A stretch of 64,000 nt of DNA from Williamsia maris. Lineage in GTDB: Bacteria; Actinomycetota; Actinomycetes; Mycobacteriales; Mycobacteriaceae. Below are positions 25,726-44,384 of this stretch, piece by piece; the first letter of the stretch is position 1, and every line of letters starts with the position of its first letter. The translations under genes and the position numbers were made by a program. The notes beneath the pieces are model-generated. The model worked only from the letters and a program-made list of their open reading frames with translations. It did not search any database and had not been told where the DNA came from. Location of the stretch: positions 744,001-808,000 of the forward strand of contig NZ_JAMTCJ010000003.1 in the NCBI RefSeq assembly GCF_024171815.1, in the 5' to 3' direction.

Positions 25726-25738
25726 GAGAACCGACGGG

Positions 25739-26179: not shown

Positions 26180-26183
26180 TGGA

Positions 26184-26363: not shown

Positions 26364-26364
26364 G

Positions 26365-27051: not shown

Positions 27052-27100
27052 CAGATGGTCCTTCCGTATGCGCAGTGGGCGCTGGTGTTGGTGTTGGTCA

Positions 27101-27502
27101 TCAGAACGTGAGCCCTCCCTCGCGGGCGGCGTCGGCCAGAGCCGCGATCCGTCCGTGGTAGTCGTGCCCACCGCGGTCGAAGACCACCGTGTCGACACCC
27201 GCGGCCTTGGCGCGGGATGCGATCAGTTCGCCGACCTTGGCGCTCTGCGCCGACTTGTCGCCGCCGGAGCTGCGCACATCGGCCTCGATCGTCGACGCCG
27301 CTGCGAGCGTGGTGCCCGAGTGGTCGTCGATGATCTGGACGTGGATGTGTCGCGAGGACCGCTTGACCGCGAGACGCGGTCGCTGCGGGGTTCCGCTGAT
27401 CTTCTTGCGCAGCCGGAAGTGCCGGCGTGCGGTGGAGCGGCGACGACGGGTCGACACGTCTTTGCCGACCGTCTCGCGCTTCGTGGTTGTGGTTTCACTC
27501 AT
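27101..27502 (-). CDS. rplR: 50S ribosomal protein L18
   Basis: A 133-aa 5S-rRNA-binding protein ([40 protein letters not shown], ending [21 protein letters not shown]). The ATG at 27502 adjoins the rplF stop; the upstream in-frame ATG lies in rplF. Confidence 0.97.
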
Positions 27503-27503
27503 G

Positions 27504-28040
27504 TCACTTACCCGTCTTTCCGACCTTGCGGCGGATCTGCTCACCCTCGTAGCGGATGCCCTTGCCCTTGTACGGGTCCGGACGCCGCAGGCGGCGAATG
27601 TTGGCCGCGATCTGGCCGACCAGTTGCTTGTCGATTCCCGAGATCGAGAACTTGGTGGGCGACTCCACCGCGAAGGTGATGCCGTCAGGCGCCTCGATCG
27701 GCACCGGGTGGCTGTAGCCGAGGGCGAACTCGAGGTCCTTGCCCTTGAGCTGCACGCGGTAGCCGACTCCGAAGATCTCCATCTTGGTGACGTAGCCCGT
27801 GGTCACACCGGTGACGAGGTTCGCCACCAGGGTGCGGGACAGTCCGTGCAACGAGCGGTTGCGACGCTCGTCGTTCGGACGGGTCACCAGGATCGAGCCG
27901 TCCTCGGCGACAACCGAGATGGGCTCGGACACCAGCAGGGCCAGTTCGCCCTTGGGTCCCTTGACCGACACGGCCTGGCCGTCGATCTTCACGTCCACTC
28001 CGGCCGGGATGACGACCGGGTTCTTTCCAATACGCGACAT
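27504..28040 (-). CDS. rplF: 50S ribosomal protein L6
   Basis: A 178-aa protein ([21 protein letters not shown]-terminal signature [22 protein letters not shown]). It follows rpsH by 12 nt. The sequence is standard. Confidence 0.98.
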
Positions 28041-28052
28041 TGAATCTGCCCC

Positions 28053-28451
28053 TTACCAGACGTAGGCGAGGACTTCGCCGCCGACGCCCTTGTTGGCTGC
28101 CTGACGGTCGGTCAGCAGGCCCGAGGACGTGGAGATGATGGCCACGCCCAGGCCGCCGAGAACCTTCGGCAAGTTGGTGGACTTCGCGTAGACCCGCAGG
28201 CCCGGCTTTGAGACGCGCCGCAGTCCGGCGATGCTCCGCTCACGGGTGGGGCCGTACTTGAGGGTGACGACGAGACTCTGGCCCACCTCGGCGGGCTCGG
28301 TCCGGTAATCGGTGATGTAGCCCTCGCGCTTGAGGATCTCGGCGATGTTGCCCTTGATCTTCGAGTGCGGGAGTGTCACCTCGTCGTGAAACGCCGAGTT
28401 GGCGTTGCGCAGACGGGTCAAGAAGTCTGCGATCGGATCAGTCATGGTCAT
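28053..28451 (-). CDS. rpsH: 30S ribosomal protein S8
   Basis: A 132-aa central-domain protein ([21 protein letters not shown]-terminal [20 protein letters not shown]). In mycobacteria rpsH directly follows rpsN. Here it starts a separate transcription unit with a leader of about 280 nt, because three unrelated genes stand between it and rpsZ. Confidence 0.98.
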
Positions 28452-28758
28452 GAGTGACCGTCAACCTTTCTCGTGGCGGTTCCCATGCAACGCGTGCATG
28501 CCGGTTCCGTTGCCGCTCTGGACGAGCGGCGCGGGCCTCGCATGTCACACCGTGGGCCTACTACGAAGTGTGTTTTGTCCTCACCGACTGATGCCGATGA
28601 GGGGCCGTGCACCAGTGGTGCAGTCCGATTTCATCTCGGGTGCACCACCGGATTTCTGTAGCTGTGAAGCCAAGAAAGTGGGCGTCACCTGGCGGTTCTC
28701 GCGCACGCGTGAGCGCGCCTGAGTGCAGGCAACCGTTCTAGTGTAGGGATCGCGGTGG
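28452..28758 (-). other. Leader region of the rpsH half-operon
   Basis: These 307 bp hold no gene that I can support. They run from the promoter at 28740-28768 to rpsH. TGCACC-AGT-GGTGCA (28608-28622) can form a small hairpin, and GGTGCACC near 28640 is a second palindrome. Purine-rich AGAAAGG just before rpsH is its ribosome-binding site. Confidence 0.4.
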
Positions 28759-28768
28759 TCAGGGCCAA
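28740..28768 (-). promoter_or_regulatory. Predicted promoter of rpsH-rplF-rplR-rpsE-rpmD-rplO
   Basis: On the minus strand, -35 TTGGCC (28763-28768) and -10 TACACT (28740-28745) are 17 nt apart. Downstream comes AGAACGGTTGCCTGC. Almost the same arrangement (CCCTACACT, then GGTTGCCTGC) precedes rplN at 32802-32831. The -35 overlaps the stop of the EthD-like gene. Confidence 0.6.
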
Positions 28769-29460
28769 ATCGCTGCCGATGTGGCCCCTCGGAGCGAGTG
28801 CAGGTGGCGAACCGTGGGCACCACGTCGATGTTCTCGTGCGCCCCGATGCGCACGACGCTGTCGAGCAGAGCGGTCATCCGGCGGCGCAGTTCGGCGTCG
28901 TCTCCCCCGCTGCCGTAGAACGCGTGGATGTCGCCGGCCGCGGCGAGCGGGAACAGCTCCTCCACGATCGCGTCGACGTGCTCCACGTCGGGCGTCACCG
29001 GTCGTTCGACGACGTTCTGCAGGTAGCCCGAGGTCGCCTGGGTCGCGATCGCGATCGGCGTGTGGTCCTCGAGCCATCGACGCAGCCACTCGGTGCGGTC
29101 GAGGGTGTCGGGGCGGCGCAGGAACGCGACGTTGGCCATGGCGTCGGCACGCGATCCGTCCCAGGTCTCCGGCGGTGGCAGGGGTCGGCGCTCGGTGACC
29201 TCCCACCCGACGACGCGGTCGGTGAGCGGGGCGAGCACCGCGGTGATCGGCTCGGGGACGGCCTCGGTCCAGACGCTGACGATCGCGTCGATCGGCGGGG
29301 CGAGCGTGGAAAGCGTCATCGCCCCGGCCACCTCGGGCGCCCCGGCGATGTTGAGCTGTACCCGGTCGGCGCCGGCCTGCTCCAGCGCGGCGAGCACCTC
29401 TGCGGACCCGAGCGCGACGGCGAGGTCGGTCCCCCACAGCGCGTACATCAGCTTGACCAC
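28759..29460 (-). CDS. EthD-domain-like protein
   Basis: A 233-aa soluble protein with two probable ferredoxin-like (dimeric alpha-beta barrel) halves. The second half, FLRRPDTLDRTEWLRRWLEDHTPIA in two blocks (about 124-148), then YLQNVVERPV and VDAIVEELFPL, looks like EthD-type proteins. Function unknown; relatives occur as small enzymes or accessory proteins in degradation pathways. The GTG at 29460 is my choice; no strong ribosome site. It is the middle gene of the island that splits the spc operon, and its end overlaps the rpsH promoter. Confidence 0.6.
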   Translation of the reverse strand: MVKLMYALWGTDLAVALGSAEVLAALEQAGADRVQLNIAGAPEVAGAMTLSTLAPPIDAIVSVWTEAVPEPITAVLAPLTDRVVGWEVTERRPLPPPETWDGSRADAMANVAFLRRPDTLDRTEWLRRWLEDHTPIAIATQATSGYLQNVVERPVTPDVEHVDAIVEELFPLAAAGDIHAFYGSGGDDAELRRRMTALLDSVVRIGAHENIDVVPTVRHLHSLRGATSAAIWP

Positions 29461-29609
29461 GCCCCGAAATCTAGACCGGCGCGGCTCGACCGCTGCTCGA
29501 TTGGGGAGATCCGACCACCTGTGGACAAGATCCCGGCTCCGGCGTGCGCTCTCCGACCGGCGGTCGGTATCGGATGGTCGGCTCGTGCTCCCCGAACAAA
29601 GGAGCACCC

Positions 29610-30197
29610 ATGACCGATCGTCATTCAGATCTCAGCGGACTGCCTCGATGGCATCCGAGTCCTCTCGTCCGATCGGCCATCACGACGATTCGCGCGCTGG
29701 GTTGGTCGGTCATGGCCGTCAGTGACGCGTGCAGTTGCGCTTCCCCGGAATGTGAGCCGCCGGACTGCTCGTTCGCGTACACGAGCGGACTCCATCTGGG
29801 TCCGATCCCTGAACTGGCCGTCTATGGCCTCGACGCACGAACTGCTCAGGCCGTCCTCAACGAGTTGGTGGATGTGCTGCGATGGCGCGATTGGAGGACT
29901 CTGGTCGAGCACGAGATCGAGTTCACCATCGATTCCATCGACTCGACGCTGCGACTGATCGAACTCGTGGACAAGTCGGATCTCCTGATCACCAACGAGT
30001 TGTTTCCCGATGCCGCTTTCCTCCAGGTGGTGTGGGCCGACGACGACGGTTCCTACCCGTGGGAGGCCGACTACTCGCTCGCACCCCACGCCCAGTTCAT
30101 TAAGGGCGTCCAGGGTGCGGCACAACGCACCGACCCTCGGTACATCTCCCGCTCGACCGGCCCCAACCGGGCGCAACGGCGTAAGCGCAAGCGGTGA
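29610..30197 (+). CDS. DUF4262-like protein
   Basis: A 195-aa protein on the opposite strand to the ribosomal genes. FAYTSGLHLGPIPELAVYGLD (in two blocks, about 51-71) is the hallmark of DUF4262, a family of unknown function. The Cys-rich loop CSCASPECEPPDC (about 38-50) could bind a metal. The tail is basic (GPNRAQRRKRKR). AAAGGAG 6 nt before the ATG supports the start. It is convergent with the AbiEi/DUF559-like gene and shares a hairpin with it. Confidence 0.7.
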   Translation: MTDRHSDLSGLPRWHPSPLVRSAITTIRALGWSVMAVSDACSCASPECEPPDCSFAYTSGLHLGPIPELAVYGLDARTAQAVLNELVDVLRWRDWRTLVEHEIEFTIDSIDSTLRLIELVDKSDLLITNELFPDAAFLQVVWADDDGSYPWEADYSLAPHAQFIKGVQGAAQRTDPRYISRSTGPNRAQRRKRKR

Positions 30198-30200
30198 ATC

Positions 30201-30275
30201 GACTGAGATCGTCCGACTACAGGGCCAGCGTGGTCACCATGACCACGGCGGCCCTGTGGACGGACGATCTCAGTC
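30201..30275. terminator. 75-nt near-perfect palindrome between convergent genes
   Basis: Two 36-nt arms (30201-30236 and 30240-30275) match at 32 of 36 positions around a 3-nt loop. The outer 15 bp are perfect (GACTGAGATCGTCCG and its complement). It begins 3 nt after the DUF4262 stop and covers the stop of the nuclease-like gene. Probably a bidirectional terminator, though longer than usual. Confidence 0.7.
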
Positions 30276-31067
30276 ACGCATCCGGTGCCGACGCGGCCGG
30301 GTGATTGCTCGGATGGAGTCGAGCGATTCGTCCCAGCCGTAGACGACGTCGTCGTATGTGAACCGCATCTTCAGCCACCCCCGTATCAACGCGGCTCTGT
30401 CTCTACGACGATCGTTGCGGTAGTTCTCCAGACTGGTGTGGTGCGCCTTGCTGTCGCACTCGATCAGCAGCTTGCCGACCCTGAGATCCACTCGCCCGAC
30501 TCCGCCGATCTGTGGCTGCACGACGACCTCGAAACCGAGCGCACGCAGACGAAAGCGGACCAATGACTCCGTCCCGGATTGCGATCTGCCGTCGCACCTG
30601 GCCAGCAGGTCGCGACCGTGCGGCCCGAGTTCCGCGGCGATGTCGGAACGGTGTGCCGAGCGCGACTGGAGCGTCGAGTCGCACGCAGCAATCCAATGCT
30701 CTTCTGTCATGCAGCGCACCGCACAACCCAGTGCATACGCCGGCGAGTCCACGGCCGTGATCGTGGGTGGCGGTGCTCCGACACCGCGACAGCTCGAGGC
30801 GATCGAGCCACGGAGGCCTTTGCTGCCGCGAACATGGATCTGGTCATGACCGGGCGCAACCCAGACCCCGTGGTGCTGCAGCGCCGAGACGCAGCCGAGT
30901 ACCCCGCCGGCTCGAACTGCCGCAACGACATGAGGGTCTGCATCGCGCCGCGCGTACCAGCCGGGGCGCAGCCGTGTCAGGTCACCCGCTGCGACCGCCC
31001 GCCGGATCTGGGCGTCGGTCGCACCGCCGTTCTTGAGCTGCGCCGTCGAGAACACCCCGTCACCCAT
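30270..31067 (-). CDS. AbiEi-like winged helix plus DUF559/Vsr-like nuclease domain
   Basis: About 265 aa. The N-terminal third (VFSTAQLKNGGATDAQIRRA, then GDLTRLRPGWYA) is the winged-helix layout seen in AbiEi-type antitoxins. The C-terminal part has a PD-(D/E)xK-like core: E167, D194 (GRVDLRVG), E203 and D205 (LIECDSKAHH), followed by YRNDRRRDRAALIRGW. Such proteins are common orphans in actinobacteria; the function is unproved, and no partner toxin (AbiEii) is nearby. Start uncertain: ATG 31067 or GTG 31055; longer readings run into the rpsZ terminator. Confidence 0.65.
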   Translation of the reverse strand: MGDGVFSTAQLKNGGATDAQIRRAVAAGDLTRLRPGWYARRDADPHVVAAVRAGGVLGCVSALQHHGVWVAPGHDQIHVRGSKGLRGSIASSCRGVGAPPPTITAVDSPAYALGCAVRCMTEEHWIAACDSTLQSRSAHRSDIAAELGPHGRDLLARCDGRSQSGTESLVRFRLRALGFEVVVQPQIGGVGRVDLRVGKLLIECDSKAHHTSLENYRNDRRRDRAALIRGWLKMRFTYDDVVYGWDESLDSIRAITRPRRHRMRD

Positions 31068-31129
31068 ACGGTTTGGACGTCGGAACGACCCGATGAGATC
31101 CACTGAGATCGTCAGCGGAGCCAGACATG

Positions 31130-31165
31130 ACAAAGGCCCGAGTCCGTGAGGACTCGGGCCTTTGT
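31130..31165 (-). terminator. Terminator of the rplN-rplX-rplE-rpsZ unit
   Basis: ACAAAGGCCCGAGTC and GACTCGGGCCTTTGT form a perfect 15-bp stem with loop CGTGAG, 22 nt after the rpsZ stop. This is the strongest hairpin terminator in the window. It shows that the first half of the spc operon ends here instead of reading on into rpsH. Confidence 0.85.
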
Positions 31166-31186
31166 CAGCAGATCAGTGGTGCAGTG

Positions 31187-31372
31187 TCACCAGCTCGACT
31201 TCTGCACGCCGGGGAGCTCACCCGCGTGCGCCATCTCGCGCAGGCAGATACGGCACAGGCCGAACTTGCGGAACACCGCGTGCGGGCGACCGCAGCGGTT
31301 GCAGCGCGTGTAGCCGCGGACCTTGAACTTCGGCTTCTTGTTGGCCTTGTTGACCAGAGCCTTCTTTGCCAT
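31187..31372 (-). CDS. rpsZ: 30S ribosomal protein S14, type Z (zinc form)
   Basis: A 61-aa S14 with zinc ligands CNRC (24-27) and CRIC (40-43), so it is the zinc-dependent isoform. It starts [20 protein letters not shown]. It is 1 nt after rplE and is the last gene before the operon break. Confidence 0.97.
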
Positions 31373-31373
31373 G

Positions 31374-31955
31374 TCAGTTGTCCTTCACGCTGTTGTCTTT
31401 GAACGGGAAGCCGAGGTGACGCAGCAGCGCACGGCCTTCGTCGTTGGTGGTGGCCGACGTGACGACGGTGATGTCCATACCGCGCGGGCGGTCGATCTCG
31501 TCGATGTCGATCTCGTGGAACATCGACTGCTCGTTCAGACCGAACGTGTAGTTGCCGTTGCCGTCGAACTGCTGGTCGGACAGACCGCGGAAGTCGCGGA
31601 TACGGGGAAGCGCGATCGACACGAGCCGATCGAGGAACTCCCACATCCGGTCGCCACGCAGCGTGACGCGCGCACCGATGGGCATGCCCTCGCGCAGCTT
31701 GAACTGTGCGATGGACTTGCGGGCGCGGCGGATCTCGGGCTTCTGGCCGGTGATCAGAGCGAGGTCCTTGACCGCGCCGTTGATCAGCTTCGCGTCGCGG
31801 GCGGCGTCACCGACACCCATGTTCACGACGACCTTGACGACGCCGGGGATCAGCATCACGTTCTCGAACTTGAACTCTTCGTTCAGCGCGTCCTTGATCT
31901 CGGAGCGGTAGCGCTCCTTGAGCCGGGGCTGAACCTTGTTCTCGGTGGTGGTCAT
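31374..31955 (-). CDS. rplE: 50S ribosomal protein L5
   Basis: A 193-aa 5S-rRNA-binding protein ([32 protein letters not shown], and the C-terminal [20 protein letters not shown]). It is 1 nt downstream of rplX. The sequence is standard. Confidence 0.98.
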
Positions 31956-31956
31956 G

Positions 31957-32274
31957 TCAGATGTCCTTCCCGTTCTTGCGGGAAATGCGCACGTTCTTGC
32001 CGGTGTCGGCGTCCCGGCGGTAGCCGACGCGAGTCGGGTTGCCCTCGGAGTCGACGACCATCACGTTGGAGACGTGGATGGCGGCCTCGGTGACGACGAT
32101 GCCGCCCGAGGAGGCGCCGCGCTCGGACTGTGCTGCGGAGGTGTGCTTCTTGATGCGGTTGACGCCCTCGACCAGGACCCGGTTACGCGTGGGGTAGGAC
32201 TCGATGACCTTGCCCTTCGCGCCCTTGTCCTTGCCCGAGATGACGATCACAGTGTCGCCCTTGTGAACCTTCAT
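31957..32274 (-). CDS. rplX: 50S ribosomal protein L24
   Basis: A 105-aa KOW-domain protein ([20 protein letters not shown]). It is 1 nt after rplN. The sequence is standard. Confidence 0.98.
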
Positions 32275-32275
32275 G

Positions 32276-32644
32276 TCAGAGCACCTCCGGAGCCAACGAA
32301 ACGATCTTCATGAAGCGCTTCTCGCGCAGCTCGCGACCGACGGGTCCGAAGATGCGGGTTCCGCGGGGGTCGGTGTCACTCTTGAGGATGACAGCGGCGT
32401 TCTCGTCGAAGCGGATGTACGAACCATCCGGACGACGGCGCTCCTTGGTGGTGCGGACGATGACGGCCTTGACGACCTCGCCGCGCTTGATGTTGCCGCC
32501 GGGAATGGCGTCCTTGACGGTGGCGACGATGACGTCACCGATGCCGGCGTACCGGCGTGACGAGCCTCCGAGCACGCGGATGCACAAGATTTCCTTGGCA
32601 CCCGTGTTGTCGGCGACCCGCAGGCGTGACTCCTGCTGGATCAC
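32276..32644 (-). CDS. rplN: 50S ribosomal protein L14
   Basis: A 122-aa protein ([20 protein letters not shown], ending [13 protein letters not shown]). The GTG at 32644 matches the family start. It is the first gene of the rplN-rplX-rplE-rpsZ unit, with a leader of about 150 nt. Confidence 0.97.
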
Positions 32645-33745: not shown

Positions 33746-35334
33746 CACTCGCGCCGCCGCGTGCCACGCCGAGCGGGTCGTCGCGACAGACCGTGTCGGC
33801 CCTCGTGGACCTGGACAGGGCCATCCGCCGCGCCAGTCCCGCCCCGCGAGGACTCCGCATCCTGGGCGGCGTCCTCGCGGTGTTCGTCCTGGTCGGGATA
33901 GCGGCGTTGGTGATGACGGCCGATGCCGGATCCGCTCGACGCACCACTGCGGCCGTCGTCTGCTTCGTCGTCGTCGGCGCGCTGTGCGTGGCGCCGTTGA
34001 TCGCGAGCCGCCCGACCGGGGTGAGTCCCGTCGACGTACGACATCTACCGGTGTCTGCGACCGCGCTGCGTGCCGCGTCGATCCGTTCCGTACTGCGCGG
34101 GCCCGGGCTGATCTTCGAGGTCGTGGCACTCCTGGTGGTCCCGCTGGCCTGGTTCACCGATCCGTCGGCGAGGACCACTGCGTCCGTCTTCGCGACCGCG
34201 GCCGTCATCCCCCTGGCCGGCATCGGCGTGATCGGCCCCCGGGTCCTCGGGCTGACCTACGCCCAGGCGATGCGCAGCCAGATCGGCCGCATCGTCTCGA
34301 CGGTCCTCGGCGTCGCCGCGATCGCCGGCATCTACGTCGTCTACCTGCTGCTCACCCAGGGGGTCATCGATCCGGCAAACCGCGGCCTGCAGATCGCGGC
34401 CCGCGTCGTGCCCACCGGGTGGCCGGTCGTCGCAGGTGAGGCTGTCGATTCCGGACGCTGGTGGCTCGCGGTGATCGTGGTGCTCGGTCTTGCCGCAGTC
34501 GCCCTCGGGATCCACCGACTGTGGTCCGGGCGCATCGACACCGCCATGTACTCCGACGCGGTCACCTCCGCATCGCGGTCGAGAACGCGGGGACCACGTC
34601 GGCCGGTCACCGCATCCCCCACGGTTCTCGTGCTGCGCACCGAGGCACGGATGCTCCTCACCGATCCGCAACGCCTGGGGTTGGCGATCATGCCGCTCGC
34701 CTTCATCGTCGTCGGTGTGGTGCTGATGCTGACCAGCGCCGACGTCTACGGGATGCAGTACGGCGCACCCCTGGTCGTCTTCATGTGTGGCTCGATGCTG
34801 GCCAACACCTACGGGCTCGACCGGTGGGGCTTCGCCCTCCTGGTCACCTCGCCGGCGGCGGCTCCGCTGGTCATCCGCTCCCGCATGATCCTGGCGGCGT
34901 CGATCGCGGTTCCGATCGGTGTCGTCGGGACGGTCGTGGCTCGCCTCGTGCGGCACACCGATCCCTCGACGTGGCCGGTCGCCGCCGCCGTCATCGTCGC
35001 CGGGACGATCACCGCGTCGGGCATGGCCGCGCTCCTGCCGGCGCTGAGCCCGTATCGGGTGCCGCCCGGGTCGTCGATCTCATCGATGAGTTCGCGCGGC
35101 TCGATGACGACCGCGAGCTTCGGATACTCCCTCGCCGCGGTGGCCGCGATGGGCGCGTTGTGCGTGCCCGGGATCGTCATCGGGCTCCTCGTCGACGGGC
35201 CGGCCGCCTACCTCGCGGTCGTCGTGCAGCTCGCCGTCGGCCTTCCCGCGCTCGTCCTCGCCCATCGCGTCGCGGTCCGCCTGGTCGCGCAGCGTGGTCC
35301 GGAGATCCTCACGGCGGTCACAGCGACGAGCTGA
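33742..35334 (+). CDS. ABC-2-type exporter membrane subunit
   Basis: A 530-aa membrane protein with about 12 hydrophobic segments in two sets, separated by a basic cytosolic loop (about residues 270-300). It overlaps the ATPase gene by 4 nt (ATGA). No substrate-defining motif is visible. Large single-chain permeases like this in actinobacteria are mostly annotated as ABC transporter permeases of unknown function. Confidence 0.82.
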
Positions 35335-35452
35335 CCGGCCACCCACTGTCGGCCGATCAGATGACGTTCGCCGAGAAATACAGAGCAGAACCGCGACGAC
35401 CCGCTATCTTTCGATCGCCTGAGATCGTTCGTCATCGAGAAGTGAGCATGTC

Positions 35453-35737
35453 GTGAAACTGAATACCCTGAGCCGTGTCGCCATCGCCGTGGGCTCCGCC
35501 TGCCTGCTGACGCTGGGCACGATGGCCACGGCCGCACCGGCCTCGGCCGCGACGAAGTACAGCAACTGCTCGCAGCTCAACCGCAGCTTCTCCCACGGCG
35601 TCGGCCTGCCCGGCGCGCGGGACAAGGTGTCCGGGAACAAGCGCGCGGTGACGAACTACCGAACCGACGCCGCAACCTACAAGCAGAACAAGGGCCTTGA
35701 CCGCGACAGGGACGGCATCGCCTGCGAGAAGAAGTGA
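35453..35737 (+). CDS. Secreted excalibur calcium-binding-domain protein
   Basis: A 94-aa precursor. The signal peptide covers residues 1-about 32 (hydrophobic core, cleavage after ASA). The C-terminal excalibur motif has the DxDxDGxxCE loop (DRDRDGIACEKK) and the partner Cys in KYSNCSQLNRSF. Excalibur domains are small extracellular Ca2+-binding modules. It is a single-domain form. Position before the TerD-AIM24 cassette may be chance. Confidence 0.85.
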   Translation: MKLNTLSRVAIAVGSACLLTLGTMATAAPASAATKYSNCSQLNRSFSHGVGLPGARDKVSGNKRAVTNYRTDAATYKQNKGLDRDRDGIACEKK

Positions 35738-35817
35738 CCCCGCTTCTCTGACACGTCGGGCACCGTCCGGCGACTCACGATTTCTGGAACACTGGTCGCC
35801 GTGTACGGGAATCGATC

Positions 35818-37215
35818 ATGACCAGCCTGTCCCGAGGTGAGAACCGGCCGTTGCCGGCACCGGGGGTCGCAGTCACGGTGTCGTCGACCACCTCGCTGGA
35901 CGTCTCGGCGTTGCTGCTCGGCGAGAACGGTGCGGTCCGCTCCGACGCCGACCTCATCTTCTTCAACAACCCGGTCGGCCCGGGCGTCGAGTACCGCCAT
36001 GGTCGGGGCGCGGGTGACGTGGTCGCCATCGACACCACCGCGCTGCCCGCCGACGTGTCCACGGTCGTGGTCACGGCCAGCCTCGACGGCTCGGGACCCA
36101 CGACGTTCGCAGGCGCCGGACAACTCGTCGCCACCGTCACCTCCTCGGGTGATCCGCTGACCTTCGAGGTGTCCGGACTGACCACCGAGGCCGCACTGGT
36201 CTGCGTCGAGGTCTACCGCCGCAACGGCGCGTGGAAGGTCCGCGCCGTCGGGCAGGGCTACGACGACGGCCTGGCCGGCATCGCCACCGCCTTCGGTATC
36301 GACATCGAGGACGAGCCCGCGCCTGCGCCCACTCCCCCACCCGTCGCGCCGCCCACACCCCCGCCGGCGCCGTCGAGTCCCGCTGCCGCACCGACCTATT
36401 CGGCACCGACACAGTCCTACGCGGCCGCAGCGCCGTCGTCCCCTCCGCCCAGCCCGCCCCACAACCAGGGAGTCCCGCCCATGCAGAGCGAACTGTTCGC
36501 ACCCCAATTCGCCGAGTCGACCGAACCCGGGATCCAGAAGCAGGGCAGCAAGATGGCCAAGGTCGCTCTCAACGGCGACGTGATGGCGCGAACCGGATCG
36601 ATGGTCGCCTACCAGGGCGACCTGAAGTTCGAGGCCCTCGGCGCGGGCGGCATCGGCAACATGATCCGGCAGCGACTCTCCGGCGAGGGGGTCCCGCTGA
36701 TGAAGGTCGTCGGACGCGGAGACCTGTTCCTGGCCAACGCTTCCTCCGACGTTCACCTCATCGACCTCGACGGGTCCGACGGCCTGACCATCAACGGCGC
36801 CAACGTCCTCGCCTTCGAGTCGACGCTGTCGTACACGATCGGCCGGGTCCAGGGCGCCGCCGCGGCGAGCAACGCCGGACTCTTCAACTGCGTGTTCACC
36901 GGCCGCGGCCGCATCGCGATCACCACCGACGGGACCCCGGTCGTACTCAACGTCGACCAGCCGACCTTCGCCGACCCGCAGGCCGCGGTGGCCTGGTCGT
37001 CGAGCCTGAGAACCGGTGTCAAGCAAAATGATTCGTTCAACCTCGGCACCCTGATCGGGCGCAGCACCGGAGAGCGGTTCACCCTCTCGTTCTCCGGGCA
37101 GGGCTTCGTCATCGTCCAACCATCCGAACTCCCGCCCGGCGGGATGATCGGCGGCACCGGCGCCGGCGAGCAGTCCGGTGTCGGCGGAGCGCTGGGCGGC
37201 CTGCTCGGCCGCTGA
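35818..37215 (+). CDS. TerD-AIM24 fusion protein
   Basis: A 465-aa protein with three parts. Residues about 10-165 are a TerD domain (SDADLIFFNNPVGPGVEY, then WKVRAVGQGYDDGLAGIA), a Ca2+-binding beta-sandwich family linked to tellurite and other stress responses. Residues about 167-222 are a Pro/Ala-rich linker. Residues about 228-445 are an AIM24-like beta-helical domain (MAKVALNGDVMARTGSMVAY, GRGDLFLANASSDVHLIDLD). There is no signal peptide, so it is cytosolic. It heads a same-strand cassette: 69 nt to the nuclease-like gene, which is coupled to the winged-helix gene, and then the double ATPase. Confidence 0.85.
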   Translation: MTSLSRGENRPLPAPGVAVTVSSTTSLDVSALLLGENGAVRSDADLIFFNNPVGPGVEYRHGRGAGDVVAIDTTALPADVSTVVVTASLDGSGPTTFAGAGQLVATVTSSGDPLTFEVSGLTTEAALVCVEVYRRNGAWKVRAVGQGYDDGLAGIATAFGIDIEDEPAPAPTPPPVAPPTPPPAPSSPAAAPTYSAPTQSYAAAAPSSPPPSPPHNQGVPPMQSELFAPQFAESTEPGIQKQGSKMAKVALNGDVMARTGSMVAYQGDLKFEALGAGGIGNMIRQRLSGEGVPLMKVVGRGDLFLANASSDVHLIDLDGSDGLTINGANVLAFESTLSYTIGRVQGAAAASNAGLFNCVFTGRGRIAITTDGTPVVLNVDQPTFADPQAAVAWSSSLRTGVKQNDSFNLGTLIGRSTGERFTLSFSGQGFVIVQPSELPPGGMIGGTGAGEQSGVGGALGGLLGR

Positions 37216-37284
37216 CACGGCTCGTCTCGACTCGCCGATCCGGCGACAGGGTTCCACGGTCCGCGCCGATCGTGAACCACGGCA

Positions 37285-38466
37285 ATGCAATCGGGGGTGT
37301 ACCTGCAGGTGGTCGATCGTTCGAGTCGCGCGGCCCGCATCGTGGACATGGGTGTGAGCGCGCCGCTGGCCACGATCCCGCGCGGACGGGTCGTCGATCT
37401 CGTGGGCTCGGATCTGCTCTCCTTCGAGGCCACCGCGGACCCGTCCCCCGATCACTCCCCCGTGGCCGTCTCCGTGGTGATCGACCGGCCGATGTCGCTG
37501 GCGCGGACCGTCGACGATGTCGTGCGGGCGTTGGCCGCGGCGGTGGTGGACCTGTTCCCGACGTGGCTCCTCGACGACGAATCCCCCGATCCGCCTGGGT
37601 ATCTCGACCCCGCCACGGCCACCCGGTTGGTCCGCCTTGTGGCCTCGCGCAGCGGACATTCGATGCCTGCCCTCACCGTTCTGACACAGGCGGGACGGTC
37701 CGGTCGGCTCCGCCTCGGCGAGCTGGCGCCCGAGACCCTGGCCCGCGAGTGCGCCCTGCTGCTCGCGACCACGTACCGGCGCACCCATGTCTGCCTCGCC
37801 GTGACCCGAGCCGACCCCGCCCCTGACGACGCCGATCCGGTCCCCGACGCGTGGACGCTGGACGACCAGCGCGTGGTGGCCACGGCCTGCGAGTGGTTGA
37901 CCCGGCACGCGGACGTCGCGGTCTGCCTCGTCGGCGACCCACTGCCGGCGATCGACCGCTTCACCCCCGTGCCGTGGGCGACGCCGTCGGCCGACGCCGC
38001 GCGCGCTGTCGAGACAGTCGATGCCGACGACACGATGGGCACCGGCGTGAGCGTTCGACTGCCCGCCGTCTCGGGTCGGCCGCATCCTGCCAGCGTCGCC
38101 GAACAGCGTCTGCACGCCTACCTCGCGCAGCACGTATGGTCGTCCGGAGCACGGTGGAACGAGGCCTTCGCGCCCGATCCACTCGCCGCACCCATCCGTG
38201 TCGACATCGTCTGGCCCCACGCACGATGTGTCGTGGAGATCGACGGAGACGACCACCGCAGCGTCGCCAAATACGCCGCAGATCGCAGGCGCGACAACAT
38301 GTTGCAACTCGCGGGGTACACCGTCTACCGCTTCACCAACCGCGAGGTGCTCGACGACGTCTCGTTGGTCGCCGACGTCATCGAACGCGGCCTGCGGGGG
38401 CGTATCGGCGCCGCGGCATCGGCAATGACAGCAGCACATCCCAACGGAGAGGCACACCACCGGTGA
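37285..38466 (+). CDS. Protein with C-terminal DUF559/Vsr-like nuclease domain (cassette gene 2)
   Basis: 393 aa. Residues 1-about 255 have no family I recognise (predicted alpha/beta, VDRSSRAARIVDMGVSAPLA at the start). Residues about 268-372 carry a PD-(D/E)xK-type core: E273 (SVAEQRL), D307 (IRVDIVW), E318 and D320 (CVVEIDGDDHR), then DRRRDNMLQLAGYTVYRF, as in DUF559/Vsr-like endonucleases. Catalytic residues appear intact. The stop overlaps the start of the next gene (GTGA). The start is uncertain, with no good ribosome site before ATG 37285. Confidence 0.75.
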   Translation: MQSGVYLQVVDRSSRAARIVDMGVSAPLATIPRGRVVDLVGSDLLSFEATADPSPDHSPVAVSVVIDRPMSLARTVDDVVRALAAAVVDLFPTWLLDDESPDPPGYLDPATATRLVRLVASRSGHSMPALTVLTQAGRSGRLRLGELAPETLARECALLLATTYRRTHVCLAVTRADPAPDDADPVPDAWTLDDQRVVATACEWLTRHADVAVCLVGDPLPAIDRFTPVPWATPSADAARAVETVDADDTMGTGVSVRLPAVSGRPHPASVAEQRLHAYLAQHVWSSGARWNEAFAPDPLAAPIRVDIVWPHARCVVEIDGDDHRSVAKYAADRRRDNMLQLAGYTVYRFTNREVLDDVSLVADVIERGLRGRIGAAASAMTAAHPNGEAHHR

Positions 38467-39140
38467 CATCGATCGAATTGACCGCGGGCGAGGCGACGAT
38501 CCTGTTCGTCCTGATGGCCGAAGGGCGCGACGTCGCCAACACCGAACTCAAGGCGTTCGGCCCGGAGCTGACCAAGCCGTCGCGGGAGAAGCTCAACCGA
38601 GCCGGCCTCGTGCACAGCGAGCTCGTCTCCCGTCGGTATCTCCACACCCTGACCGACGACGGATGGGCCTGGTGTGCGGCACATCTCGGCGCCGACGCCC
38701 CGGGTCGCGCCCAGCCGTCGAGTCGAGCGTTGTTCACCGTCCTGCAGGGACTCGATCGCCACCTGCGTCGCAGCGACACCCTCATCTCCGAGGTGTTCGC
38801 CCCCCGCACGCCGACCGTCCCGCAGAACGCCACCCCCGCCGCGCCCGACGCCGCCACGACCGCGGTCGCACCGGCTTCCGACATCGACCAGCGGATCCGC
38901 GACGCCTATCACCGGCTGACACGTCGCCCGGGCGGGTGGGTCGGCCTTCTCGCGCTGCGTACGGAGCTGTCCACCGTAGATCACGCCGAGATCGACGACG
39001 CGCTGCTGCGTCTGCACCGGGTACCGGGATTCAACGTCATCCCGGAGGAGAACCAGAAGACCCTCACCCCCCAAGACCGGGCCGCCGCGGTGTCGATCGG
39101 CGGCCAGGCAAGCCATCTCATCGCGATCGAGGAGGTCTGA
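38463..39140 (+). CDS. Probable winged-helix DNA-binding protein (cassette gene 3)
   Basis: 225 aa. Two compact helical regions of winged-helix type, residues about 3-75 (LTAGEATILFVLMAEGRDVA, LTKPSREKLNRAGLV, RRYLHTLTDDGWAWC) and about 140-225 (IDQRIRDAYHRLTRRPGGWV, VIPEENQKTLTPQDRAAAV), are joined by a Pro/Ala linker. I do not recognise a named family. GTG 38463 overlaps the nuclease gene stop, and the ATPase gene starts 1 nt after its own stop. It probably works as DNA-recognition or adaptor subunit for both neighbours; this is inference. Confidence 0.6.
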   Translation: MTSIELTAGEATILFVLMAEGRDVANTELKAFGPELTKPSREKLNRAGLVHSELVSRRYLHTLTDDGWAWCAAHLGADAPGRAQPSSRALFTVLQGLDRHLRRSDTLISEVFAPRTPTVPQNATPAAPDAATTAVAPASDIDQRIRDAYHRLTRRPGGWVGLLALRTELSTVDHAEIDDALLRLHRVPGFNVIPEENQKTLTPQDRAAAVSIGGQASHLIAIEEV

Positions 39141-39141
39141 G

Positions 39142-42100
39142 ATGACGCAGATCCCGACCACCGAGGACCTCTCGGCCCTGAAATCCATCCGGCTCTCGTG
39201 GGCACCGACTCCCGACGACGTCTGGCGCCCGCAGTCGGAACTGCACGTGCCGGGTATGCACGAACGGGCGTTGAGCCACACGCTCGAAGCCTTCGACGAC
39301 GCACGCCGTAGCGACGATTCCAGTCCGCTGGGTGTCGTTGTGACCGGTCCCGCCGGGACCGGCAAGACCCATCTGCTGGCGCAGGCACGTGAGGCGGTCC
39401 AGCAACAGGGCGGCTATTTCTTCCTCATCGGCCTGCTCGACGGCAAGAGCTTCTGGCGTTCGATCCTCATCGGCCTCCTGGACGATCTGATGCGACCCGC
39501 ACCGGGCCACGTAAGTCAGCACGTCAAACTCCTCGCCGAACTCGCCGACGTCGCTCAGGTCGATGCCCCCACCAAGGCCGCGGTCGTGGGTGAGGCGCCC
39601 GTGACACCCGAGATCCTCGACACCTTCGTCACAGCTGTGTTCGCCGAGCGCCCGCGGTATCGGCGCCGCGCTCAGCATGCTCTGCGGGCGCTGGTCCTGT
39701 GGGCCGCCGCCGACCCGTTCGTGCAGGAACTCGGCGACGCCTACCTGCAGGCCATCAGCGACATCGATCCCTCTGAGTTCACGCCGTGGGGAATCCGGCA
39801 GGCAGAGTTGGGATATCAGGGGATCTCCGAGGCCATCTCCCGTCTGATGTCGCTGACCGGTCCGACGATGCTCGCCATCGACCAGATCGACACCCTGCTG
39901 GCGCAGTCACGAACTGCGACGGGATCCGGCACCGGCGACGACTCGGAAGACCGCCTGCTGGAGGAGGTCGCACACGGTTTGATGTCGCTGCGCCAGACGA
40001 TGAGTCGCACGGTCTCGGTGGTGTCCTGTCTCCCGGCGGCATGGGATTCCCTCGTCACCCACGCGACAGCGTCGGTGACCGATCGGTTCCGCATCGCCCC
40101 GATGTTGCAACGCATACCCGATGCCGAGATCGCCCGTTCCATTCTGGCCCGTCGCTTTCGGCAGAGCTTTGCGACCGTCGGCTTCACGCCTCCGTACCCC
40201 ACGTGGCCGATCGCTGCCGAGGCCTTCGAAACTGCTCTGGACATGACACCGCGGCGCGTGATGATTCTCGCCGATCGGCACATCAGGCGTTGTGTGGACG
40301 GCGATTCCGTGACCGAGCTGACGACTTTCGCCGATTCGGACCCCACTGAGGAAGCCGTGTCGATCACGTCCTCCGATTCGGAGTTGAGCGTGCTCGACCG
40401 TCGATTCGCAGAATTGACCGACCGGTTCGACGTCGACACGGTCATGTCCGAGGAGAACGAGGACCGCGAGTTCCCGTCCTTGCTCGCAGCGGGTTTCAGC
40501 TCGTGGATCGCGGAGCGGACCGGGCAGCGAGAGACGTTCACCTTCGACCCGAGCCAGAGCAGTTCCCCGCCACTACACGGTCGACTGAAGTGCGATCTGG
40601 ACGAGAACGACAATCAGCAGCACTGGGCCTTCCGGGCCGTCGCGGCCCAGCATCCGCGGGCGGCGCTGAACCGCATCCAGAAGGCCAGCGCGGCCGTCGG
40701 TCTGACGGCTGGGGTCCCGCAGCGCGGTATCACGCTCATTCGGAACACCTCGTGGTCGTCAGGGCCCAAGACGCAGGAGACCCTCGGCGAGTTCGAGAAG
40801 GCCGGCGGCAGGATCCGGTCGATCTCGCGGCAGGACGTGGGCGCGCTCGGTGCCCTCCGAACCTTTCTGGCGGAGAACCCTGTGGGGCTCAACGACTGGT
40901 TGAGCACCCGCCGTCCCGCGCACGGGATCACGCTGTTCGCGCAGACGCTGCCCGCGATCGACGAGCACCCGGGTGACACCGCCGTCGCGGCGCCCCCGAC
41001 AGCGTCCCCGACAGCGTCCCCGACAGCGTCCCCGACGACCACCGAAACAGCCCCCGCCGAACCGGCGACCACCGACACCGGCACCCCGGCAACCGAAGAC
41101 GTCGACGAGCCGACGACGTCGCCGCAACCGGCCACACCGTCGGAACCAGTTGTCGCCGAACAGGAGCCGTCGGCCACGGAGATCGTCGTGGGGACTGCGT
41201 CGTCGTCGGGCCGCGATGTCAGTGTCTCGCTGGAGGCGCTGCGCAAACACGTCGCCATCTTCGCCGGGTCCGGCTCGGGCAAGACCGTGCTGATCCGCCG
41301 CCTCATCGAGGAGTGCGCGGTCGCCGGGGTGTCGGCGATCGTGCTCGACGTCAACAACGACCTCGCGCGGCTCGGCGAGCAGTGGCCCGAGGGCAGTCGG
41401 GAGTGGCCGCCACGCGACCGACAGCTCGCCGACGACTACTTCGCCCACACCGAGGTCATCGTGTGGACACCGCGCCGGAGCGCGGGGCGCCCGTTGAGCT
41501 TTCAACCGCTCCCGGATTTCTCGAGTGCGCTCGACGATGCCGACGAGTTCGACGCCGCGGTCGATTCGGCACTGGCTTCCCTGGAACCGCAGGCGGTCGC
41601 GCGCGGCGCCAAGGCCAAGCACTCGCAGGCGGTGCTGCGGCAGGCCGTCCAACACTTCGGACGCAACGGCGGTGGTGGCCTCTCGGATCTGGTTGCGCTG
41701 CTGGAGGACTTCCCGGCCGAGGCGAGCAAGATGCGCAACGCATCAGGCATCGCCGCCGACCTGGCCGAGAACCTCAAGGCGGCGATCGCCAACGATCCGA
41801 TGTTCGGCGGCCAGGGCACCCCGGTCGACCCCGGTGTGCTGTTGACGCCGTCGGAGGGCAAGCGGGCGCGGGTGTCGGTCATCAACCTGGCCGGGCTGAC
41901 CGCCGACGAGACCAAGCAGAACTTCGTCAACCAGCTCCAGATGGGGTTGTTCGCGTGGATCAAGAAGAACCCGGCCGGCGACCGCCCGCTCGGTGGGCTG
42001 CTGGTGATGGACGAGGCGCAGAACTTCGCGCCGTCGGGCGCCATGACCACGGCGACCCACAGCACGTTGGCGCTGGCGTCGCAGGCCCGCAAGTACGGCC

Positions 42101-42396
42101 TCGGTCTGGTCTACGCGACACAGGCCCCGAAGGGGCTGCACAACAGGATCTCCGGCAACGCGTCCACGCAGTTCTACGGCCTGCTCACCGCGCCGACGCA
42201 GATCGCGGCCGCGCAGGAGCTGGCGAAGATGAAGGGCGGCACACTGGCCGACCTCGCGCGCCTGCCGTCGGGCCGGTTCTACGCCGCGATCGAGGGCGGC
42301 GGGTTCACGCAGGTACAGACCCCGCTGTGCGTGTCGTACCACCCGAAGAGCCCGCCCACCGAAGAAGAGGTCATCGCCATCGCCCGCCGGTCCTGA
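39142..42396 (+). CDS. Double ATPase: N-terminal AAA domain fused to C-terminal HerA/FtsK-like domain (cassette gene 4)
   Basis: 1084 aa. Domain 1 (about 35-390) is an ORC/AAA-type ATPase with Walker A GPAGTGKT (69-76) and Walker B MLAIDQID (D247). Residues about 440-600 form a conserved-looking domain I cannot name (RGITLIRNTSWSSGPKTQE, FEKAGGRIRSISRQDV). A Pro/Thr linker (about 614-680) contains a threefold ASPT repeat. Domain 2 (about 685-1084) is HerA/FtsK-like: Walker A AGSGSGKT (708-715), Walker B LLVMDEAQNF (D957, E958) and a sensor segment VYATQAPKGL. It has both NTPase sites intact. It is probably a DNA translocase or remodeller working with the nuclease-like and winged-helix proteins upstream. 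Confidence 0.75.
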   Translation: MTQIPTTEDLSALKSIRLSWAPTPDDVWRPQSELHVPGMHERALSHTLEAFDDARRSDDSSPLGVVVTGPAGTGKTHLLAQAREAVQQQGGYFFLIGLLDGKSFWRSILIGLLDDLMRPAPGHVSQHVKLLAELADVAQVDAPTKAAVVGEAPVTPEILDTFVTAVFAERPRYRRRAQHALRALVLWAAADPFVQELGDAYLQAISDIDPSEFTPWGIRQAELGYQGISEAISRLMSLTGPTMLAIDQIDTLLAQSRTATGSGTGDDSEDRLLEEVAHGLMSLRQTMSRTVSVVSCLPAAWDSLVTHATASVTDRFRIAPMLQRIPDAEIARSILARRFRQSFATVGFTPPYPTWPIAAEAFETALDMTPRRVMILADRHIRRCVDGDSVTELTTFADSDPTEEAVSITSSDSELSVLDRRFAELTDRFDVDTVMSEENEDREFPSLLAAGFSSWIAERTGQRETFTFDPSQSSSPPLHGRLKCDLDENDNQQHWAFRAVAAQHPRAALNRIQKASAAVGLTAGVPQRGITLIRNTSWSSGPKTQETLGEFEKAGGRIRSISRQDVGALGALRTFLAENPVGLNDWLSTRRPAHGITLFAQTLPAIDEHPGDTAVAAPPTASPTASPTASPTTTETAPAEPATTDTGTPATEDVDEPTTSPQPATPSEPVVAEQEPSATEIVVGTASSSGRDVSVSLEALRKHVAIFAGSGSGKTVLIRRLIEECAVAGVSAIVLDVNNDLARLGEQWPEGSREWPPRDRQLADDYFAHTEVIVWTPRRSAGRPLSFQPLPDFSSALDDADEFDAAVDSALASLEPQAVARGAKAKHSQAVLRQAVQHFGRNGGGGLSDLVALLEDFPAEASKMRNASGIAADLAENLKAAIANDPMFGGQGTPVDPGVLLTPSEGKRARVSVINLAGLTADETKQNFVNQLQMGLFAWIKKNPAGDRPLGGLLVMDEAQNFAPSGAMTTATHSTLALASQARKYGLGLVYATQAPKGLHNRISGNASTQFYGLLTAPTQIAAAQELAKMKGGTLADLARLPSGRFYAAIEGGGFTQVQTPLCVSYHPKSPPTEEEVIAIARRS
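40998..41033 (+). repeat. Three tandem 12-bp units inside the double-ATPase gene
   Basis: GACAGCGTCCCC occurs three times in succession and encodes (T)ASP(T) repeats in the disordered linker between the two ATPase domains. As 12 bp is a multiple of three, copy-number change would keep the frame. Confidence 0.85.
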
Positions 42397-42409
42397 GGCA
42401 CTGCGCGAC

Positions 42410-43771
42410 CTACTGGTTCCCGAAGACGCCGCGGTAGGCGGCCGCCGGGTGGGTGTCGGGGAGACGGTCGCGTCCCGACGATTTCCGTCGAGAGGTGCCC
42501 TCGGCGTACTCCCGCTTGGCCAGTCCGCGGTCGCGCAGGACCGGCATGACGTGATCGATGAACTCCTCGTAGCTGCCCGGGATGGTGGAGTTCACCACGT
42601 TGATCCCACCGACACCGGCGGCTCGCCAGTCCTCGAGCACGTCGGCGATGGTCTCCGGTGTTCCGACGACACGGCCTGAGCGGCTGCGGATCTCGGCCAG
42701 ATCCCGCACCGTCGGCTCGCGATCGGTGATGGCCTCCTTCACCCAGGCCAGCGTGCTGCGGTTGCCCTCCGCCTCGATCTCGCCGATCGGGGTGTCGAGA
42801 TCGTAGGAGCCGAGGTCGAACCCCATGCCGCCGGCCGCGTGGGCGATGATCGTGGTCGGATCGATGAACTCGTCGAGCTCGGCGGCCTTGCGGGTCGCCT
42901 CCTCCTCGGTGCTGCCGATGACGAACGACAGGCCCTGGAAGAACTGGAGATCGTCCGGTGCGCGGCCGGCGTCGGTGACGAGCGTGCGCGTGTCGGCGAT
43001 CAGTGCCTTCGCGGCCCGCGGATTCGGCGACATGATGAACTGCGCCTCGGCATTACGGGCGGCGAAGCCACGACCCGCCGGCGACGAGCCGGCCTGGAAC
43101 AGCACCGGGGTCCGCTGCGGCGACGGCGCCACCAGATGCGGTCCCTCCACCCGGTACCGCTCCCCGACGTGGTTGATCTTGTGGACCTTGTCGAAGTCCG
43201 CGTGCAGACCGGACTTCTTGTCCGCGACGAGCGCCCCGTCGTCCCACGAGCCCTCCCAGAGCTTGTAGACCACGTCGACGTACTCATCGGCCCACCGGTA
43301 TCGGTCGTCATGTCCGGTGATGTCGTCGTAGCCGAAGTTGCGCCACGCGTTGGCCGACTGGCTCGTCACGATGTTCCAGGCGATCCGACCGTTCGACGCT
43401 TGATCCAGGGTCGACATCATCCGGGCGAACTGGAACGGATGCGTCTGCAGGATGGAGCTGGTGACCGCGATGCCGAGGTGCTCGGTCGCGTAGGCGATGG
43501 CCGACGCGAGGACCGTCGGATCGTTGCTCGGGATCTGCAGACCGGACTCGACGAACTTGCGCCACGACCCCTGGTAGTCCCCGTAGAGCCCCACCACGTC
43601 GGCGAAGAAGATGTAGTCGAACGTCCCCGCCTCCAGCGTCCTCGCCAGCGACACCCAGTGCTCGAGTGAATTGAAGTCGCTCTGGCGCGCCTCCGGGAGC
43701 CGCCACGCGCCGTGCGTGATGTGCGACGTCGTGTTCATGACGAATGCGGAGAACTGCAGCGGAGTGGTCAT
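42410..43771 (-). CDS. NtaA/SnaA/DszA-family flavin-dependent monooxygenase
   Basis: A 453-aa class C flavin monooxygenase (LLM superfamily, FMNH2 supplied by a separate reductase). Family marks are FDYIFFADVVGLYGDY, GRIAWNIVTSQSANAWRNFG, HRYxWADEYVDVVYKLWEGS-type sequence and FQAGSSPAGRGFAARNAEA. Relatives act on nitrilotriacetate, sulfones and similar compounds; the substrate is unknown here. The ATG at 43771 matches the family start. It converges with the double-ATPase gene (13-nt gap). No flavin reductase lies next to it. Confidence 0.9.
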   Translation of the reverse strand: MTTPLQFSAFVMNTTSHITHGAWRLPEARQSDFNSLEHWVSLARTLEAGTFDYIFFADVVGLYGDYQGSWRKFVESGLQIPSNDPTVLASAIAYATEHLGIAVTSSILQTHPFQFARMMSTLDQASNGRIAWNIVTSQSANAWRNFGYDDITGHDDRYRWADEYVDVVYKLWEGSWDDGALVADKKSGLHADFDKVHKINHVGERYRVEGPHLVAPSPQRTPVLFQAGSSPAGRGFAARNAEAQFIMSPNPRAAKALIADTRTLVTDAGRAPDDLQFFQGLSFVIGSTEEEATRKAAELDEFIDPTTIIAHAAGGMGFDLGSYDLDTPIGEIEAEGNRSTLAWVKEAITDREPTVRDLAEIRSRSGRVVGTPETIADVLEDWRAAGVGGINVVNSTIPGSYEEFIDHVMPVLRDRGLAKREYAEGTSRRKSSGRDRLPDTHPAAAYRGVFGNQ

Positions 43772-43849
43772 CGGAGTCCACGCTACGGCGGACCCGTCAC
43801 GGGCACACGAGAGGCGATCGAGCTGAGTCGAAGTGTCAGGACAGCAGCA

Positions 43850-43876
43850 GGGCCGGACACCTGTGGTGTCCGGCCC
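43850..43876 (-). terminator. Terminator of the first small secreted-protein gene
   Basis: GGGCCGGACACC and GGTGTCCGGCCC form a perfect 12-bp stem with a TGT loop, 22 nt past the stop of the 43898 gene. There is no U tract. Confidence 0.7.
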
Positions 43877-43897
43877 CACGCGGGCAATCCTGCGGTC

Positions 43898-44185
43898 TTA
43901 TCGGCCCAGCGGGATCCAGAAGCCGAAGAACCAGAAGCCCCACCCGTGGTGGTGCTGGTCGAAGACCGGTGTCACCCGATGACCCTGGTAGTTGAACGGC
44001 CGGTGGTCCGGGCGGCTGACCGGACCGGGCTGGGCGAACGGTGCGCCGTTGCCGCGGAACTCCTGCTGGGTGTTCTGGTGCGGACCCTGCGGTGCGGCGG
44101 ACGCCATGCCGGCACCGGCGCCCAGAGATGCGAGCGCGATGCCGCCCGCGAGTGCCGATCCGATGACGATCTTCTTGAGCTTCAT
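43898..44185 (-). CDS. Small secreted protein with aromatic C-terminal tail (paralogue A)
   Basis: A 95-aa precursor with a signal peptide (MKLKKIVIGSALAGGIALAS, cleavage after ASA, about residue 31). The mature part is short, rich in Pro, Gln and His, and ends in VTPVFDQHHHGWGFWFFGFW plus IPLGR. The tail repeats in the neighbour at 44385. I know no family for it. ATG 44185 is preferred over 44191 because GAGGGG then has proper spacing. No Cys residues in the mature part. It probably ends up outside the membrane or in the cell envelope. Confidence 0.75.
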   Translation of the reverse strand: MKLKKIVIGSALAGGIALASLGAGAGMASAAPQGPHQNTQQEFRGNGAPFAQPGPVSRPDHRPFNYQGHRVTPVFDQHHHGWGFWFFGFWIPLGR

Positions 44186-44384
44186 TCCCATGTCCCCTCG
44201 TGACCACCGGAGTTCCGGTGAACCGTCTGTGGTTGTCGACTGACTGACGACTTCGGCAAACGTAGGAGCCGAACCTGTCAGGCATCTGCCGGTCACGCTG
44301 TCAACAGGCTGTCAACCGCCGGTTGCACTCGCAGACTGGGCTTTTCGGGCATCTCGACCGTTGTCGGATCCGGCGACGTCGGGA

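Follow-up and report, generated by a model that had tools for sequence, protein, structure and literature searches.

Introduction

HerA/FtsK capture systems have been proposed in silico to intercept invading DNA, and passages of the paper that describes them (Rakesh, Aravind, Krishnan 2024, PMC10853773) list neighbourhoods made up of an Orc/CDC6 AAA+ ATPase, an inactive restriction endonuclease (REase), an active REase, a HerA/FtsK ATPase and winged helix-turn-helix (wHTH) proteins. The same passages include DndFGH, where the HerA-type domain of DndH lies in a multi-domain chain and is accompanied by a nuclease and a wHTH protein. DUF4297-HerA is an established anti-phage pairing of HerA with a nuclease, as told in excerpts of PMC11291478. 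Here we analyse a locus in a 64,000-nucleotide stretch of Williamsia maris DNA (contig NZ_JAMTCJ010000003.1, positions 744,001 to 808,000; hereafter the window), where three adjacent genes encoding a PD-(D/E)xK nuclease (gene 2), a small predicted DNA-binding protein (gene 3) and a double ATPase (gene 4) form a compact, recurrent cassette (Table 1). The gene immediately upstream (gene 1), which encodes a TerD-AIM24 protein, had been counted as a fourth component by a prediction made from the DNA alone (the original prediction).

The cassette resembles the capture systems, as passages of PMC10853773 present them, in coupling an AAA+ domain to a HerA/FtsK-type domain and in encoding an active nuclease of the REase superfamily. 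A subset of those systems has a small, fast-evolving wHTH protein, as the cassette has its small winged-helix gene 3, and their domains may be fused or separate; the anti-invader role is proposed there too. They also place an inactive REase between the AAA+ domain and a C-terminal wHTH, and DUF559, MarR, TerD, ribosomal clusters and nuclease loss go without mention in these passages. In the cassette the HerA/FtsK-type domain is recognised by DUF87, by HerA profiles of the Protein Data Bank (PDB) and by motif residues in 69 of 69 aligned sequences, and the active REase by DUF559 and residues kept in 46 of 46, though a nuclease match was obtained at 43 of the 80 loci. The AAA_22/AAA_16 matches show an AAA ATPase in gene 4, a candidate at most for the Orc/CDC6 clade. 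By description, then, the cassette looks like a variant of the HerA/FtsK capture kind, its membership being putative as regards the inactive REase and the Orc/CDC6 clade. The original prediction had called it a candidate undescribed system, and 'undescribed' is true of the exact cassette in the literature searched but not of its general kind (PMC10853773, passages). A BREX-related HerA capture system, described in passages of PMC12839542, has components that differ from the cassette's. The likeness to DUF4297-HerA (PMC11291478, excerpts) lies in a HerA hexamer, predicted for the cassette, with a separate effector enzyme.

Other comparisons were less close. The nuclease partner is of the DUF559 type in 46 of 46 family members, rather than DUF4297 or NurA. 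Sir2-HerA reportedly also combines a HerA hexamer with a separate effector; the cassette differs from it and from DUF4297-HerA in its effector, in having HerA and AAA+ domains in one chain, and in the winged-helix protein that accompanies them. For DndFGH, only a weak match to the HerA domain of DndH was obtained (3.4e-6, 22.9 bits), and none of genes 2-4 matched DndF or DndG in PADLOC. The best PADLOC match of gene 4 was mad8 of MADS (3e-20, over the HerA domain), followed by several HerA models, but the mad8 model has 314 positions and covers the HerA domain only, and no other mad match occurred among the seven proteins scanned.

Results and Discussion

Genes 2-4 form a recurrent insert

The four genes predicted on one strand with tight spacing were recovered at the positions and gaps originally given, namely 69 nt between genes 1 and 2, a 4-nt overlap of genes 2 and 3, and 1 nt between genes 3 and 4. 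The real unit is smaller. DNA of a cassette-free relative (G003) aligns by blastn with window positions 34003-37222 (90.6%) and 42421-44351 (90.3%), with 36 bp in between, and the 5198-bp insert of the window thus consists of genes 2-4 only. A promoter and terminator scan and an RNA fold of the gap between the TerD gene and gene 2 gave nothing.

The first relatives of gene 4 came from three PLSDB records (Nonomuraea, Tsukamurella and Methylobacterium) and from three of seven other Williamsia genomes; further Williamsia matches are a different HerA-like protein of ~540 aa, with 20-24% identity. All seven first copies, the window's and those of distant hosts included, have gene 3 and a DUF559-type gene 2 directly upstream, and this recurrence in Nonomuraea, Tsukamurella and a Methylobacterium plasmid upholds the prediction that genes 2-4 are one unit. 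Scanning a single genome for each species then gave at least 379 gene 4 relatives, the best 80 of which were used, so that the counts below describe the closest relatives; these 80 loci were recruited with two patterns, one of them 'DQID'. In all 80, gene 3 immediately precedes gene 4 (spacing of -4 or -1 nt in 69 loci, 9-17 nt in 11). Gene 2 is matched by its profile in 43, in 42 of them adjacent; the 43rd (L050) has its nuclease in the first of two cassettes. This Rhodococcus locus (L050:487-9579) is a tandem array, with the nuclease and genes 3-4 followed by genes 3-4 alone. Co-occurrence of genes 2-4, on which the original prediction had staked its one system, is therefore complete for genes 3 and 4 and partial for gene 2.

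Querying in the reverse direction with gene 3 returned eight genomes with a full-length match, five in one search (G000, G004, G006, G007, G012) and three in a class-wide search (G036, G058, G069); gene 4 adjoins in eight of eight and gene 2 in seven. Four Williamsia genomes matched the query through the N-terminal winged helix only. Class-wide, gene 3 occurred in 4 of 50 genomes, the window's included, a count that may be low because 60 candidates were scored in the larger genomes. Within Williamsia, gene 4 of the cassette is ~52-54% identical to the window's copy, versus 76-95% for TerD-AIM24. Genes 2-4 are scattered among actinobacteria, with a patchy distribution.

TerD-AIM24 is a bystander

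Gene 1 does encode the predicted fusion, both domains being matched by Pfam (TerD 5e-27, AIM24 6e-34); PADLOC gave it no match. A TerD-linked stress or defence system of four genes, in which TerD-AIM24 would sense stress or recruit the complex to a membrane, gains from the same-strand position 69 nt upstream of gene 2 in the window and from a 5' position in five Rhodococcus loci. The comparative data speak against it. TerD-AIM24 is present in eight of eight Williamsia genomes (at 76-95% identity outside the window itself), of which four carry the cassette and four do not, and the cassette-free site in G003 retains TerD. Its position relative to the cassette varies, being 5', 3' or kilobases away: 13 of the 80 loci showed it, each of them within the ribosomal cluster, where it lies on the 5' side in the five Rhodococcus loci, directly 3' in six and further 3' in two, and the fetched flank of the other 67 has none. 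We consider the four-gene system largely refuted and very improbable; these counts and the empty site rule out TerD-AIM24 as a component, and TerD is not linked to the cassette as a Ter-type system would have it. TerD-AIM24 is a bystander, a core gene outside the insert.

Domain content and conserved residues

Gene 4 was matched by Pfam AAA_22/AAA_16 and by the HerA domain DUF87 (7.6e-11), and its PDB profile matches are all HerA, including 4d2i, labelled HERA. The first ATPase has K75 as its Walker A lysine and D247-Q248 at Walker B, the HerA domain K714 and D957-E958; these residues, along with D250, R315, R371, R983 and Q994, are found in 69 of 69 gene 4 rows, 30 of which come without a nuclease and keep the motif residues all the same. 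We take R315 to be a putative arginine finger and R371 a putative sensor-2 residue, the roles of R983 and Q994 being likewise assumed from knowledge of the fold. The invariance of 'DQID' is partly by construction since this pattern was used to recruit loci, although it is also present in seven of seven copies found without it. Two complete P-loop ATPases had been predicted. K75 and K714 are indeed invariant, but with glutamine replacing the catalytic acid of Walker B in 69 of 69 rows 'complete' is too strong for the first ATPase. For the middle region (~400-600), no PDB profile match was better than E 0.57, and PADLOC gave stray, unconvincing matches; going by guessed secondary structure, this region may resemble an inactive REase.

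Gene 2 belongs to a DUF559 family (1e-10 for the window protein; DUF559 in 46 of 46 members) and matches the PDB profile of 3hrl, an endonuclease-like protein, at 9e-14; in PADLOC only a weak DpdF match was seen. The PD-(D/E)xK-like residues that had been read as intact (E273, D307, E318 and D320) are conserved, being kept with H324 in 46 of 46 aligned relatives, an alignment that leaves out the contig-truncated L067 and three duplicate Williamsia records. The N-terminal half of the nuclease is fast-evolving, with a median pairwise identity of 33% versus 50% for the C-terminal domain (38 loci). The protein may start at M22, which fits the family alignment better and would widen the gap to the TerD gene to ~132 nt.

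Gene 3 has no Pfam or PADLOC match. Of the two winged-helix regions predicted, the first is backed by homology: the further Williamsia proteins that its profile picks up (E 1e-7 to 4e-5) include one that Pfam assigns to MarR_2 (2.6e-13); the second yields only a weak MCM4_WHD match (0.002, in 3 of 33 members), and the C-terminal domain is perhaps another winged helix. A likeness to calmodulin (2e-5; 0.003 for the C-terminal part) was discarded as probably due to chance, no calcium-loop residues being visible by eye.

Table 1. Features of the locus and the evidence behind them
Feature	Position	Strand	Basis or remark
Gene 1, TerD-AIM24 protein	35818..37215	+	Flanking core gene, outside the insert, not part of the cassette
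Gene 2, PD-(D/E)xK nuclease, C-terminal DUF559/Vsr-like domain (~262-370), likely true start M22 at 37348	37285..38466	+	Pfam, PDB profile match, conserved residues
Gene 3 (GTG start), small DNA-binding protein (predicted): MarR-type winged helix ~3-103, linker, C-terminal domain ~138-225	38463..39140	+	Profile matches
Gene 4, 1084-aa double ATPase: AAA+ ~50-390, middle ~400-600, Pro/Thr-rich linker, HerA/FtsK-type ~680-1070	39142..42396	+	Pfam/PADLOC/NCBIfam, PDB profiles, residues
Insert relative to cassette-free relative G003	37223..42420	.	blastn against G003 (L032); 5198 bp here, 36 bp in G003
Break points of the ribosomal-protein cluster	Window 24192-32644; loci L004, L038-L045, L047, L050, L052, L058, L060, L063, L080, L083

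The nuclease has been lost repeatedly

In 37 of the 80 loci no nuclease match was found, and even the two of these that are closest to the end of a contig retain 590 and 859 nt of upstream sequence. Mapping the nuclease label on a tree of 84 gene 4 proteins requires nine changes, at least six of them forced by well-supported branches, and removal of the two longest branches leaves the result unchanged. A single clade of the 38 nuclease-free rows is rejected (p-AU 6e-90, quick tree). Deletion scars are visible at two loci: L105, which retains 47 bp of the gene, is without 936 bp present in L076, and L087 is without 883 bp of the copy in L079, both gene ends still aligning. Meanwhile gene 4 has an omega of 0.07-0.32 in eight nuclease-free pairs and 0.03-0.33 in five nuclease-bearing pairs, and gene 3 one of 0.10-0.52 versus 0.05-0.43 (Nei-Gojobori; all 15 pairs hand-picked). 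The nuclease is thus a repeatedly lost partner. Because nuclease-free copies are scattered, in two cases scarred, and under purifying selection, the conserved core is the winged-helix protein with the double ATPase, and since this pair persists under selection after nuclease deletion it must have an activity of its own.

Whether a nuclease is supplied from elsewhere was examined in the genomes of 20 of the 37 nuclease-free loci. A full-length nuclease was found at another place in one of them (G088); in 15 the matches were limited to the C-terminal, DUF559-type part, and 4 gave no match. For five large genomes of this set, 104 of the 137-181 first-look candidates were scored. No common replacement effector emerged among 19 proteins sampled at nuclease-free loci, where the partners are clade-specific (oxidoreductase, VTT, DUF7159, WD40, Trypco1, rhodanese and Macro). 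At L074, a Macro-domain gene (13104-13451) starts within ~10 nt after gene 4, and related genes occupy this position in two Mycolicibacterium loci that are nuclease-free (L077, L082). In the nuclease-free Micromonosporaceae copies (L092, L093, L100, L108, L113), WD40 and Trypco1 genes lie upstream of gene 3 in head-to-head orientation, possibly a link to other conflict systems. Immediately 5' of nuclease-free gene 3-4 pairs, the same strand encodes related-looking proteins of 600-720 aa with a P-loop-like start and repeats (L116:7095-9263, L111:7562-9397; no Pfam match).

One account of these losses makes the gene 3-4 pair a nuclease-independent machine for DNA handling or silencing, which might for instance stop foreign DNA from replicating or segregating; the nuclease would be no more than an optional effector. 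The number of nuclease-free loci, the forced label changes and rejected single clade, the scars with continued selection on gene 4, and the near absence of a full-length nuclease in trans in the 20 genomes searched all agree with it. It has to contend with the most distant copies found (Methylobacterium and Tsukamurella, both on long branches), which do carry the nuclease, with generic DUF559 or other host nucleases that could act in trans, and with the partial scoring in five genomes, and we regard it as unlikely, if worth keeping in mind.

Genomic address and mobility

The S10-spc ribosomal-protein cluster houses 16 of the 80 loci, all of them among the 19 from Rhodococcus, Rhodococcoides and Williamsia. 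In 13 the cassette separates L14 from S17 (for L044 one side only was seen) and in three it separates S8 from S14 (the S14 side of L080 was seen in L035). The Tsukamurella copy stands between rplN and rpsQ, accompanied by a VapBC pair and by a helicase gene, and the window's copy is ~4.6 kb 5' of L14. The break points S17/L14 and S14/S8 carry accessory genes, the cassette among them, in Rhodococcus, Williamsia and Tsukamurella. Within Rhodococcus much of this address may reflect common ancestry, but the cassette occupies differing sites within Williamsia and also has a distant copy in Tsukamurella, which suggests that it arrived repeatedly or was relocated locally. A literature search on the ribosomal-cluster location, at the level of listings, found nothing relevant. 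It is conceivable, though we think it doubtful, that a two-protein winged-helix/AAA-HerA machine controls foreign or own DNA without cutting, its DUF559 nuclease being an optional, discarded weapon, and that in Nocardiaceae it spreads by homologous recombination between near-identical flanking ribosomal-protein genes.

Carriage by mobile elements was rejected. Prophage cargo is contradicted by the lack of any relative in 50,697 phage records or in a viral-contig scan, and plasmid cargo by the nature of the three PLSDB relatives: two look chromosomal by size and content (11.85 Mb, or bearing S10 ribosomal genes), and the third is a 1.57-Mb Methylobacterium plasmid. The record with ribosomal genes, NZ_LR134464.1 (L004), is labelled a plasmid and is probably a piece of chromosome.

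A probable role against invading DNA

On balance we favour, with modest confidence, the view that genes 2-4 act against invaders as one chromosomal cassette, horizontally scattered and of the HerA/FtsK-translocase type; a role in defence is plausible. The points in its favour are the patchiness, the clean insertion, the high divergence compared with the flanking core gene, the theme of HerA plus nuclease, the invariable coupling of genes 3 and 4, the fast-evolving N-terminal half of the nuclease and the invariant motif residues of gene 4. Starting from what was observed directly (gene content, coupling, conserved residues, the gain and loss pattern, and selection), we infer a mechanism whose target may be phage, plasmid or conjugating DNA. 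The MarR-like protein would bind DNA and load gene 4, whose glutamine-substituted AAA+ domain could serve as a slow, ATP-gated clamp or switch, and the HerA domain, as a hexamer, would pump along or grip the duplex. Where present, the DUF559 nuclease would dock on the HerA hexamer and cut the DNA, an add-on raising both potency and cost; the gene 3-4 pair by itself might block DNA or hand it over to host nucleases.

Several results weigh against this reading. First, PADLOC revealed no clear enrichment among flanking genes, the listed families reaching at most 2 of 107 near genes versus up to 6 of 82 far genes (families listed in this comparison: 25 of 65 and 25 of 27). The near set comprised the two nearest genes per side at 30 hand-picked non-ribosomal, non-mycobacterial loci (113 genes), less the six longest; at least one dropped gene (L093:4762-8730) encodes a WD40 protein, with which three others (L100, L108, L113) cluster. 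Second, Pfam assigned the near genes, the only set so analysed, to ordinary metabolic and transport families with a few Trypco1. Third, the phage records and viral contigs searched above hold no relative. Fourth, the nuclease-free pair of Mycolicibacterium recurs beside the same housekeeping genes within clades, like a resident chromosomal pair. Lastly, no modification gene was seen in the insert, which leaves self/non-self discrimination unexplained.

A machine for DNA repair or end processing like the archaeal HerA-NurA would account for the HERA-labelled 4d2i match, and a nuclease with a HerA motor suits end resection. The cassette's nuclease is however of the DUF559 type and not NurA, and patchy presence (four of eight genomes in one genus) with repeated nuclease loss is unlike a housekeeping repair enzyme; we judge this reading improbable.

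Implications

If the anti-invader reading is right, the cassette would add a widespread actinobacterial branch to the theme of defence by HerA motors, TerD-AIM24 would come off the list of supposed defence components, and the ribosomal-cluster break points would be places where accessory cassettes land. What was not expected is a nuclease-free form that endures. It would amount to a natural experiment, in which many lineages have had the nuclease deleted while the motor and the DNA-binding protein are still under selection, and whether the HerA motor, and not the cutter, is the working part would become directly testable.

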